NCBI GenBank assembly: GCA_002155105.1
Contig: MUZD01000001.1
Location: 620,001-684,000, forward strand
Direction of reading: 5' to 3'
Length of the DNA: 64,000 nt
Source: Sedimentibacter sp. SX930
Lineage (GTDB): Bacteria; Bacillota; Bacilli; Lactobacillales; Aerococcaceae
Below the pieces are notes generated by a model. That model ran no database searches, was not told the DNA's origin, and was given only the letters and a program-made list of their open reading frames with translations. This document shows, piece after piece, positions 12,880 to 58,909 of this stretch; within the stretch, counting starts at the first letter, position 1, and each line of letters begins with the position of its first letter. The translations under genes and the position numbers were made by a program.

Positions 12880-12891
12880 AATGTAAGCGCA

Positions 12892-12905
12892 AACATCCAT
12901 ATAGT
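12892..12905 (+). promoter_or_regulatory. cre-like site (CcpA)
   Basis: TGTAAGCGCAAACA fits the low-G+C catabolite-responsive element pattern TGNAANCGNWNNCA at every fixed position. Placed just after a promoter, it would be a roadblock or repression site for CcpA. Confidence 0.6.
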
Positions 12906-55211: not shown

Positions 55212-55805
55212 TTATTTCAATGATTTTGAGTTGACCATAACTTCGTCGATCAAGCCGTATTCTTTGGCTTGTTGGGCGGTCATGTAGTTATCGCGGTCGG
55301 TATCGCGTTCGATGACTTCCATCGGTTGTCCTGTGCGTTCCGCCAAAATTTTGTTCAGGCGTTCACGGGTTTGTAGGATGTGACGAGCTGCGATTTCGAT
55401 TTCGGTTGCTTGACCTTGCGCGCCGCCAAGCGGTTGGTGAATCATGATTTCAGCATTCGGCAACGCGAAACGTTTGCCTTTTTCGCCGGCAGTCAGCAAG
55501 AAGCTGCCCATCGAAGCTGCCATACCCATTGCGATCGTCTGAACGTCGGCCTTGATGAAGTTCATCGTATCGAAGATTGCCAAGCCGGCAGAAACGCTGC
55601 CGCCTGGAGAGTTGATGTAGATGTAGATATCTTTTTCTGAATCTTGTGCATCCAGGAATAGCAATTGCGCGATGACAGAATTTGCTGTGTTGTCGTCGAT
55701 CGGGCCGCTCAACATGATGATGCGATCCTTCAGAAGACGGGAATAAATATCATACGCACGTTCACCACGGGATGATTGTTCGATTACTGTAGGGATTAAA
55801 TTCAT
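55212..55805 (-). CDS. clpP: ATP-dependent Clp protease proteolytic subunit
   Basis: Serine peptidase barrel that degrades proteins fed by ClpC, ClpE or ClpX. 197 residues. Catalytic Ser in [11 protein letters not shown] (about 98), His in IMIHQPLGG (about 123), and the Asp in DRDNYM (about 172). AGGAGG lies upstream of the ATG. It has its own CtsR-type promoter and terminator. Confidence 0.97.
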
Positions 55806-56342: not shown

Positions 56343-56358
56343 TTGAAAACGATTTCAA
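56343..56358 (+). promoter_or_regulatory. cre site (CcpA) before rpoN
   Basis: TTGAAAACGATTTCAA contains TGAAAACGATTTCA, a full match to the TGNAANCGNWNNCA pattern and a palindrome. It overlaps the -35 box at 56353-56358, so binding would repress. Confidence 0.75.
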
Positions 56359-56381
56359 TAAAGGGCTGTGTGTGATAAAAT
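56353..56381 (+). promoter_or_regulatory. promoter of the rpoN-like gene
   Basis: TTTCAA (56353-56358), 17-bp spacer, TAAAAT (56376-56381). Confidence 0.65.
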
Positions 56382-56409: not shown

Positions 56410-57504
56410 GTGTCGGTTATATCAAGTATGCATATGGATAAAGAAAGTTTGGAGGAATCGCTGAGGTTGGTGGGGTACGATAATGAAGAATTGTTCGCTT
56501 ATCTTCAACAAAAAGCGTTGGGCAATCCCTTAATCGAAGTGAAAATCAATAAAGAATTCGATGAACGCGCTGTAAAAGAAAGAACGATAGTGTATAAACC
56601 GGATAAAGACGATCCGATGGATATGGTTTCCGCTATGGATCAAGTATTTGAAGAAGTGCCGGCGTTGGATACATTCTTATTGGAACAAATCTATGCAAAC
56701 ATGCGGGACACGCCCTTGCGCGAGTTGGTTTTATTTTTGGTGGCATTCATCAATCCGGAAGGGTACGTCACAATCGATCTGAATGAAGCCGCGGAACAGA
56801 AGGGTGTCGAACCGATCGTGATGCTGGATGCGTTGACGCTCCTGCATCAATTGGATCCCCCGGGTGTGGGGGCCCGAAATCTGCAGGAATGCCTGATGCT
56901 GCAGACTGAGCGTGATGAATATGCGCCGGAAATCGCCTATTATATTCTGGAGAATTACTTTACGGCCTTCAGTGACAAAAACTGGCAAGCAATAGCTGAA
57001 GAGATGAATGTCGAGCTGTCCGATGTGAAGGCGGTATTCGAGTATGCCCAAACCTTGGACCCGACACCGGGATCGGCATTCGGAGATGACAGTTTTTCGT
57101 TGCCCAGACCGGATCTGTATCTGCAGCTGGTGGATGGTCATCTGACTGTTAAATACAATGAGTGGGCTTCTCCTTTCATCATTTTCCAAAAAGAATATTA
57201 TGAAGAGATGATGCAACACGAAGATGTGGACGTGCAACAATTTCTGGCAGCGAAGAAAACGGAGTGGGAGCAGTTGCGGTCTGCAGTTGCATTCAGAAAA
57301 GAGTTGCTGCTTGCGGCGGGAGAATTGATCTGCGGCTTGCAGAAAGGCTTTTTCCTGGAAGGTCGGGAGTTGGAACCGCTCGATGTGACTCGTTTGGCTG
57401 GAGATTTGGCGGTCCCGGCGACTGTCATGCGCGAAGAAATATTGGAGAAAACGATCGAAACGGACCGTGGGACATTTTTGTTGCACCAGTTATGCGGTGA
57501 ATAG
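56410..57504 (+). CDS. rpoN: truncated RNA polymerase sigma-54 factor
   Basis: Sigma-54 directs RNA polymerase to -24/-12 promoters that need activator ATPases. This protein has 364 residues, against about 430-480 normally. The N-terminal activator region is short: LEESLRLVGYDNEELFAYLQQKALGNPLIEV is kept, but the Gln-rich opening helix is not. The core-binding domain is clear (LDPPGVGARNLQECLMLQ, about 150-168), as is the following TVKYNEWASPFI region. It stops after the HTH-like VTRLAGDLAVPATVMREEILEKTIETDRGTFLL and lacks the C-terminal RpoN box (ARRTVAKYR) that reads the -24 element. The 340 bases after the stop show no displaced RpoN box. It lies before cggR, a known position for rpoN in Lactobacillales. 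It may be decayed or altered. Confidence 0.8.
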   Translation: MSVISSMHMDKESLEESLRLVGYDNEELFAYLQQKALGNPLIEVKINKEFDERAVKERTIVYKPDKDDPMDMVSAMDQVFEEVPALDTFLLEQIYANMRDTPLRELVLFLVAFINPEGYVTIDLNEAAEQKGVEPIVMLDALTLLHQLDPPGVGARNLQECLMLQTERDEYAPEIAYYILENYFTAFSDKNWQAIAEEMNVELSDVKAVFEYAQTLDPTPGSAFGDDSFSLPRPDLYLQLVDGHLTVKYNEWASPFIIFQKEYYEEMMQHEDVDVQQFLAAKKTEWEQLRSAVAFRKELLLAAGELICGLQKGFFLEGRELEPLDVTRLAGDLAVPATVMREEILEKTIETDRGTFLLHQLCGE

Positions 57505-57871
57505 GCTGTGAATCGACAATAATAAATGAAAAAGATGCGAAACGCTAAACAATAACGGGACAATTATCGACCCTTATCAAAAAGTTGATGTACCAAGGTT
57601 TTCTGAAAGCGTATGTCTAAAAGGCAATCGGATTATAGGCTACTCGTGATATATTGAACGAATCTATTTTAAAGGAATTCGAATTTATTTGCCAAAACGC
57701 TTGAAACGTCTAGTGTTTACTGTTAAAATGATGAAGTAAAGACGAGGGAGAATAGACGGAATAAAAAAATATTTGCAGTCCTATTCCATCTCTCCTGATA
57801 TGAAATAAACGAGGACCGCCTAAGATTGCAGCGGGGCGAAAAGCGTCCACGTGCAAATGAAGAGGGTTTTT
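57505..57871 (+). other. leader between rpoN and cggR
   Basis: About 370 bases without a gene. It contains the promoter at 57701-57729 and then about 140 bases of leader. I see no terminator after rpoN and no clear CggR operator with the Bacillus pattern. Confidence 0.45.
57701..57729 (+). promoter_or_regulatory. promoter of the cggR glycolytic operon
   Basis: TTGAAA (57701-57706), 17-bp spacer, TAAAAT (57724-57729). Confidence 0.75.
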
Positions 57872-58909
57872 ATGGAAGAGTCTATTTCAGTCTTGCAGCA
57901 AATAGTCCCGGACATTATGTCAGTCCTTCAAAATCGTTACCATATCATGCGTAATATCCAAATGTATGCTCCAGTCGGGAGACGCGTCCTGGCCGATAAA
58001 GTATCCTTGTCAGAAAGGACTTTACGGACTGAGACAGATTTTTTGCGGAAACAAGGTCTTCTTTCCAGTTCTAAGAACGGGATGGAATTGACTGAGGAAG
58101 GCGAGGACATTTTTCGTCAGCTGGAAAGGTTCATGCGGTTATTGCTGAATATGAATGCGAAAGAAAAGGCGTTAGCGGATTATCTGAATATTCAGTTTTG
58201 TAGGATTGTTCCTGGCGATTGTGATGAAGATGCATCCGTTCTGGATGAAATCGGAAAAACTGCAGCCAAAGAACTGCATGCGTTATTGCCGGCAGGCGAA
58301 TTTATCGTTGCTGTTGCTGGCGGGAGTACTATGGCACAGGCTGCCGAACATTTTTCACCTGAATTGTCACAGAACAGGGAGTTCATGTTTGTCCCGACAC
58401 GAGGCGGTTTAGGCGAATCCATGTCGATACAAGCCAACAGTGTCAGCGATCGTATGGCGCAGTTGGTAGGCGGTGAGAACATGGCACTTTTCGTTCCCGA
58501 TAATTTGAGCGAAAAAGCTTATGCATCCATGAAATCCGAGCCATCAATCAAACATACTTTATCCGTCATGAAAAAGGCAAACTGCTTGTTATATAGTATC
58601 GGTAATGCTAAAGTAATGATGGAAAGACGCAGGATGTCGCATGGGTTGATTTCGTCCCTAGAAGCGCATAATGCGGTAGGTGAAGCCTTTGGTTGTTACT
58701 TCAATGAGAACGGAGAAATCGTCTATCGATTGTCCCGGTTCGGACTTCAGATTGAAGACATCGAAAAGATCCCGTACGCAATGGCCATTGCAGGGGGAAG
58801 CACGAAAGCCAAGGCTATTAAAGCGTTCATGAAATATGCCCCGCATCAAACATGGCTGATTACGGATGAGGGCGCAGCTAATCTGATTTTAAAAGGGGTA
58901 ACCCTTTAA
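57872..58909 (+). CDS. cggR: central glycolytic genes regulator CggR
   Basis: A SorC-family repressor of the lower-glycolysis operon, released by fructose 1,6-bisphosphate. 345 residues. An N-terminal winged helix (about 25-90, VGRRVLADKVSLSERTLRTETDFLRKQGLL) is followed by the sugar-phosphate-binding domain (about 110-345) with VAVAGGSTMAQAAEHF, PTRGGLGE and ITDEGAANLIL. ATG 57872 has AGAGGG about six bases upstream; earlier in-frame ATG/GTG codons exist but are close to the site. The target genes follow directly. Confidence 0.93.
   Translation: MEESISVLQQIVPDIMSVLQNRYHIMRNIQMYAPVGRRVLADKVSLSERTLRTETDFLRKQGLLSSSKNGMELTEEGEDIFRQLERFMRLLLNMNAKEKALADYLNIQFCRIVPGDCDEDASVLDEIGKTAAKELHALLPAGEFIVAVAGGSTMAQAAEHFSPELSQNREFMFVPTRGGLGESMSIQANSVSDRMAQLVGGENMALFVPDNLSEKAYASMKSEPSIKHTLSVMKKANCLLYSIGNAKVMMERRRMSHGLISSLEAHNAVGEAFGCYFNENGEIVYRLSRFGLQIEDIEKIPYAMAIAGGSTKAKAIKAFMKYAPHQTWLITDEGAANLILKGVTL

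Follow-up and report, generated by a model that had tools for sequence, protein, structure and literature searches.

A conserved sigma-54 paralogue without an RpoN box, a possible catabolite-controlled decoy, coexists with full-length sigma-54 in Trichococcus

The plus-strand frame at 56410-57504 of the 64-kb window (the whole stretch of DNA that was analysed, 64,000 nucleotides) encodes a paralogue of sigma-54 (RpoN) that lacks the RpoN box. This frame is intact over 364 codons, from a GTG at 56410 to a TAG ending at 57504, and the resulting 364-aa protein contains LDPPGVGARNLQECL; its assignment draws on Pfam, NCBIfam, conservation in Trichococcus and dN/dS. The protein has kept the core-binding anatomy of sigma-54, is conserved throughout the genus under selection, lies behind conserved promoter elements, and coexists with a full-length sigma-54 and its activators. 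As selection keeps it intact, the short protein probably does a new regulatory job. The best explanation for this combination is quite possibly, if not yet probably, that the short protein serves as a catabolite-controlled decoy for core polymerase that tempers sigma-54.

With canonical sigma-54 (TIGR02395; PF00309, PF04963 and PF04552) the short protein shares the core-binding domain, the first half of the DNA-binding domain and the old rpoN position. It differs in lacking the RpoN box and the Gln-rich start, in the replacement of an Arg in the helix-turn-helix (HTH), and in scoring below the rpoN cut-off (222.8 bits against 277.35 for NCBIfam rpoN_sigma, TIGR02395). The core-binding domain PF04963 is complete, covering residues 77-263 (56638-57198, plus strand) and profile positions 3-185 of 185 with an E-value of 1.4e-39. 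The activator-interacting domain PF00309 was matched only from profile position 16 on, at 17.5 bits and below its cut-off of 23.8; its later part is present at residues 16-46 (56455-56547, plus strand), and a complete domain with a Gln-rich start is not. The match to the DNA-binding domain spans profile positions 2-87 of 160. An extra-long helix at residues 273-310 (57226-57339, plus strand; AlphaFold2) is followed by a degenerate HTH at residues 326-364 (57385-57501, plus strand), and the stop falls where the RpoN-box domain would be expected. Frame and Pfam profiles thus agree with the original prediction that the protein stops at residue 364 ahead of the box, keeps its core-binding domain and lacks the Gln-rich N-terminal start. 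Its account of lost DNA reading was right about the box and left out the degenerate HTH, in which Arg has become Glu or Met in 11/11 copies.

In all 11 Trichococcus short copies the frame stops ahead of the RpoN box. Three frames read 3' of the stop revealed no trace of the box, and tblastn with two full-length RpoN boxes against 57301-57900 gave no match, so that a box surviving downstream in another frame was rejected. Supply of the box in trans was also rejected: a search of this genome found PF04552 at two places only, and no separate protein therefore provides it. Removal of the box by a sequencing or assembly error, which had been named beforehand as a way in which the reading might fail, is unlikely because the same end point recurs across 11 Trichococcus genomes.

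Residue retention was measured over columns conserved in at least 70% of 66 full-length proteins, in a 103-row alignment with eight held-out canonical groups as controls; this alignment took in 16 of 20 later-added sequences, the other four repeating genomes already included. Of the 48 conserved core-binding columns, a mean of 0.92 is retained by the 11 short proteins, compared with 0.51-0.90 in the controls. For the extra-long-helix part the value is 0.67, low within the control range of 0.45-1.00, and Arg296 of this helix is kept in 11/11. The activator domain retains 0.49 on average, under all eight controls (0.53-1.00), the HTH part 0.47 (controls 0.60-0.88), and the box columns 0 (controls 0.70-0.94). 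The single conserved Arg of the HTH is the residue that reads the -12 element; it is present in 66/66 full-length proteins and replaced by Glu in 10/11 and by Met in 1/11 Trichococcus short copies. According to the available sections of one paper (PMC6755734), the HTH serves the -12 and the RpoN box the -24 element. Core-binding residues are retained in the short protein, and DNA-reading ones are not. An AlphaFold2 model of the protein gave a sigma-54-like chain (pLDDT 81.6, pTM 0.51), for which the best Foldseek matches were sigma-54 chains of polymerase complexes (E 5e-20). The relative placement of the domains in this model is unsure, since the TM-scores to sigma-54 were about 0.45 at best, the rmsd was large and the pTM was 0.51.

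The genes around the short rpoN are arranged as murA, mbl, clpP (55212-55805, minus strand), the short gene itself, cggR (57851-58909, plus strand), gapA, pgk and tpi, with clpP on the left and cggR on the right in 11/11 Trichococcus loci examined. Among 20 regions chosen elsewhere in the order, outside the window's family, rpoN adjoins cggR-gapA in 15, and clpP lies at most 3 kb from canonical rpoN, on the side opposite to cggR, in 7 of 20. Because these flanks are shared with canonical rpoN of other families, the short gene occupies the old clpP-rpoN-cggR-gapA site. Within its own family, 14 stretches taken from further genera showed neither clpP nor cggR near the rpoN-like gene. One of the 15 cggR-gapA-linked regions is itself broken: at L138:5145-6390 (genome G242) rpoN is without its end and cggR without its start, as if one deletion had spanned both, and recent decay of rpoN at the same site is likely there.

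The short frame is present in 11 of 13 Trichococcus genomes, and the two that lack it are 51% and 63% complete. When relatives were compared, seven Trichococcus loci with 78-95% identity had the same end point as the 56410-57504 frame, and in the most distant genome, G006, the frame ends one residue later. All 11 genomes also carry one to three full-length rpoN copies, which are of type A (with a LevR-like activator some 16 kb away), of type B, located elsewhere, or of a third type. The full-length type differs between Trichococcus species and the short copy is constant. A sigma-54 activator (PF00158, E <=1e-15) was likewise found in 11/11 genomes with the short gene. The RpoN-like set was collected from frames of at least 250 aa, and of the matches listed for 398 genomes across the class, none but the frame at 56410-57504 itself was shorter than 400 aa.

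Across 12 Trichococcus pairs, dN/dS was 0.07-0.15 for the whole short gene and 0.06-0.11 for its core-binding domain. Constraint on the HTH remnant is weaker (0.11-0.58 over the eleven pairs for which a value was defined). Residues 16-46 gave 0-0.08 in nine closer-species pairs with a defined value, and 0.26 and 0.38 in two pairs against L006; L077, the short copy furthest from the rest (56% identity), entered the alignment and none of the pairs. Full-length controls ranged from 0.05 to 0.09 for type A (4 pairs) and from 0.07 to 0.11 for type B (5 pairs), and the neighbours clpP, cggR and gapA from 0.01 to 0.14. In a neutral simulation of substitutions only (2000 runs), the frame stayed open in 1.3% of runs at 0.1 and in 0.05% at 0.2 substitutions per site. 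The short gene is under purifying selection and is not decaying. The decay that the original prediction had kept as one alternative is rejected because of the open frame shared by 11/13 genomes, the dN/dS values and the simulation, and its own argument, that the intact frame and the promoter speak against simple decay, is borne out by dN/dS and by conservation in 11/11 copies.

Upstream of the gene, a catabolite-responsive element (cre; TTGAAAACGATTTCAA) at 56343-56358 on the plus strand overlaps the likely -35 and matches WTGNNARCGNWWWCAW perfectly, as one of two such matches in the window; the other is ATGTAAGCGCAAACAT at 12881-12896. An extended -10, TGTGATAAAAT, follows at 56371-56381 (plus strand). 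The cre had been foreseen at this promoter, and a strict 16-base match indeed lies 5' of 7/11 Trichococcus short copies and a relaxed 14-base match 5' of 11/11, each time followed by TGTG[A/C]TAAAAT, while the rest of the upstream region is poorly conserved and drifts among the copies. The relaxed pattern occurs twice in the whole window when both strands are scanned. Upstream of canonical rpoN genes of other families it was found in 0/15, as judged from the 300 bases before the longest possible start, and it was found at none of the one type A and two type B full-length Trichococcus genes; one full-length gene of the third type, L089, does have a relaxed match. A CcpA above the curated cut-off is encoded in the same genome. 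Repression is the likely effect of the predicted cre because it lies over the probable -35. Control of the short gene by CcpA is probably best called putative, a cre match alone being no proof of it.

The genome also has a full-length rpoN at G000:C19:240171, with the activator-interacting, core-binding and full DNA-binding domains, and two PF00158 activators (E about 1e-41) on contigs C19 and C26. PRD and EIIA-man domains are present in the C19 activator and in the later part of the C26 activator. One -24/-12 site, TGGCACGCTTTTTGCA, lies at C19:254621 directly before an EIIA-man/sorbose-IIB gene; another, TGGCACGCTATTTGCA, lies at C26:70573, after the end of the C26 activator frame and about 400 bases ahead of PTS IIB and IIC genes. 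The exact -24/-12 pattern yielded 5 sites in the genome, compared with 2 for a backward control. The output of the full-length sigma-54 here appears to be sugar PTS operons. Since a full-length rpoN, activators of the PRD/EIIA type and -24/-12 sites by PTS genes are all present, sigma-54 regulation has very probably not been lost, and the loss of sigma-54 regulons that had been proposed as a background to decay does not hold. The second, full-length rpoN, a finding that had been named beforehand as a refutation, also means that the short gene is not the working sigma-54 of the cell, and leaves it as a selected paralogue and no ordinary gene.

The decoy reading would run as follows. The present short gene would descend from an ancestral rpoN at the clpP-cggR site. 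No later than the root of the sampled Trichococcus, that gene would have lost its RpoN box, the reading residue of its HTH and the initial third of its activator domain, the sigma-54 job meanwhile being kept by a full-length rpoN elsewhere. The short protein would probably owe its expression to a promoter of the housekeeping sigma that is controlled by CcpA/cre, and it would most likely bind core RNA polymerase through its intact core-binding domain and extra-long helix, with no seat on a -24/-12 promoter. As a dead-end holoenzyme subunit, or decoy sigma, it would compete with full-length sigma-54 and lower sigma-54 output, at a level set by catabolite control: low in rich sugar and higher once CcpA lets go. 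Expression, core binding, competition and the direction of the effect are all what we infer. The decoy is the simplest reading because the parts seated on polymerase are kept and the promoter-reading parts gone, with a working sigma-54 and a cre promoter alongside. It also takes up the original prediction of a protein that binds core without normal promoter reading, which the anatomy fits, the core binding itself being predicted from retained residues and fold. The constraint on the remaining activator domain among close species counts against a pure decoy, as a decoy need not require it.

That the short protein is still a sigma, serving a few promoters via other contacts or acting activator-free like the bypass forms of sigma-54, seems unlikely to us. 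The retained core-binding domain and extra-long helix and the missing start of the activator domain would suit such a role, and bypass transcription is discussed for HTH-less RpoN in the available text of PMC6755734. Both DNA-reading elements, however, are gone or changed in 11/11 copies, and the same text reports that deletion or over-expression of meningococcal rpoN left the tested promoter unaffected.

Another improbable reading places the target elsewhere, the short protein titrating the two PRD-type activators through its residual activator-interacting part and not acting on polymerase. This would explain the strong constraint on residues 16-46 between closely related species (dN/dS of 0-0.08 over the nine pairs) and is compatible with an activator in every Trichococcus genome that has the gene. 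It is countered by the poor retention of activator-domain columns (0.49, below all controls, versus 0.92 for core binding) and by the rise of dN/dS over residues 16-46 to 0.26 and 0.38 against L006.

We likewise give little weight to a move to a job outside transcription with reuse of the core-binding fold. Separately degenerated sigma-54-like proteins, described below, are retained in genomes that yielded no activator, so the fold can persist without activator-driven transcription. A wholly new partner would not predict, however, that canonical core-binding columns are kept better (0.92) than in all controls (0.51-0.90).

The most improbable reading by far is a pseudogene that has been decaying since a different rpoN assumed its role, on the Neisseria pattern. 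The short gene does sit at the old rpoN site, with full-length copies elsewhere and a functional domain gone, and recent decay of such kind is likely at G242 (L138, where rpoN has lost its end and cggR its start). Against this, 11/11 copies have an open frame with a shared end point, one being longer by one residue, dN/dS is 0.07-0.15, neutral simulation rarely leaves the frame open, and the promoter elements are conserved amid a poorly conserved upstream stretch.

The nearest published case is the RpoN-like sequence (RLS) of Neisseria gonorrhoeae and the atypical RpoN of N. meningitidis, which, in the available sections of PMC6755734, lack the HTH, the box or both. The same sections report that 21 of 290 meningococcal isolates had neither HTH nor box and 269 of 290 kept the box, that frameshift, truncation and deletion types occur inside one species, and that no GAFTGA activator was identified and no RpoN protein detected. 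Box-less Neisseria RpoN is reported there as non-functional (PMC6755734; cited in PMC12316311, also available in part). Like the RLS, as far as these excerpts describe it, the Trichococcus short copy has lost DNA-reading domains; unlike it, the Trichococcus copy has one end genus-wide (one residue later in G006), is under purifying selection, lies behind a cre promoter and shares its genome with activators and a full-length rpoN. Relaxed selection with varying breaks, of the Neisseria type, was not what the Trichococcus copies displayed. No paper on a case in Trichococcus or Carnobacteriaceae was found among open-licence papers, the open-licence literature matches listed included no other box-less, core-binding sigma-54 or truncated decoy sigma, and the main text of Francke et al. 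2011 (PMC3162934), as far as available, contains neither 'truncated' nor 'degenerat'.

Among 71 genomes of the family, 47 had a sigma-54-like match, and classification of the copies divided these into 11 Trichococcus, 2 of genus g4, 24 with a degenerate form, and 10 with canonical copies only. The two g4 genomes each have a canonical copy and a copy of 372-379 aa that lacks the box and keeps the HTH Arg (L078:5944-7083, 379 aa; L080:6460-7578, 372 aa); these short copies are sister to the canonical L093 and apparently of separate origin. The degenerate form (rows L063, L065, L067, L069, L071-L076, L091, L092, L095, L096 and L150-L159) measures about 430 aa and has a changed HTH Arg in 19/24, a changed first box Arg in 24/24 and a changed box Lys in 24/24; GAR has become GAY or GAF in the core-binding motif of 22/24. 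It resembles the Trichococcus short protein in its kept core-binding fold, its changed HTH Arg and its purifying selection (dN/dS 0.04-0.13 in 8 of 10 pairs, 0.20 near saturation in one, and saturated and undefined in one). It differs in its length, in an altered box that is still in place, in usually being the sole sigma-54-like protein, in the lack of an activator in 22 of its 24 genomes, and in forming a separate clade. A structural model of one such protein had a pLDDT of 81.2.

In 23 of its 24 genomes no sigma-54-like protein other than the degenerate form was found, G066 having a canonical copy as well. Activators (PF00158, E <=1e-15; at most 42 candidate places scored per genome) were found in 25 family genomes, namely 24/24 with canonical sigma-54 plus G067, and in 0/24 genomes without any sigma-54 match. 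Of the 23 degenerate-only genomes, G067 is the one in which an activator was found, and the other 22 yielded none. In G067 the activator lies at C48:15416-15913, and this exception possibly reflects a stretch missing from the assembly.

Of 90 distinct RpoN-like sequences, three with odd or broken ends (L101, L117, L102) were dropped before alignment and seven further rows before a first, quick tree of 80 rows, which held 14 of the 24 degenerate sequences; a later, careful tree used 47 of 87 rows. In this 47-row tree the Trichococcus short copies, the degenerate form and the g4 copies are separate clades (5, 8 and 2 rows). One shared origin of the short copies with g4 or the degenerate clade was rejected by AU tests (short with degenerate, p 0.0067, on 5/11 short and 8/24 degenerate copies; short with g4, p 0.016), as were degenerate with g4 (p 0.0006) and all three joined (p 0.004), the p values being somewhat optimistic because the groups were chosen after the first tree was known, with long branches in play. 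A candidate sister relation of the short copies to full-length type A scored 92/75, not starred. Similar losses of DNA reading have occurred in two lineages besides Trichococcus, a single origin being rejected by the trees.

We suggest, with clear reserve, that sigma-54 has turned at least three times in one lactic-acid-type family into a stable class of core-holding decoy or anti-sigma proteins that do not read promoters. In Trichococcus such a protein would stand under catabolite control next to a functional sigma-54; in a second lineage it would be on its own and without an activator. The usual assumption is that a genome either has a working sigma-54 or has none. If the suggestion is true, a selected box-less copy would be a natural sigma-54 inhibitor built from sigma-54, CcpA catabolite control would be tied to sigma-54-driven sugar uptake, and an rpoN annotation would be no proof of a sigma-54 regulon, given that 23/71 family genomes are degenerate-only and 22 of these 23 had no activator found.

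Two minor observations concern other loci. In family f6, rpoN is in two pieces in G173 (L117/L127) and in G146 (L119/L126), where each piece is close to the start of its own contig and the split may reflect an assembly break. Beside the degenerate gene, Pfam recognised a zinc peptidase at L095 and a polysaccharide deacetylase at L095 and L091; L092 lacks a neighbour like the L095 zinc peptidase, and at L091 and L096 a neighbouring gene resembles it by eye.
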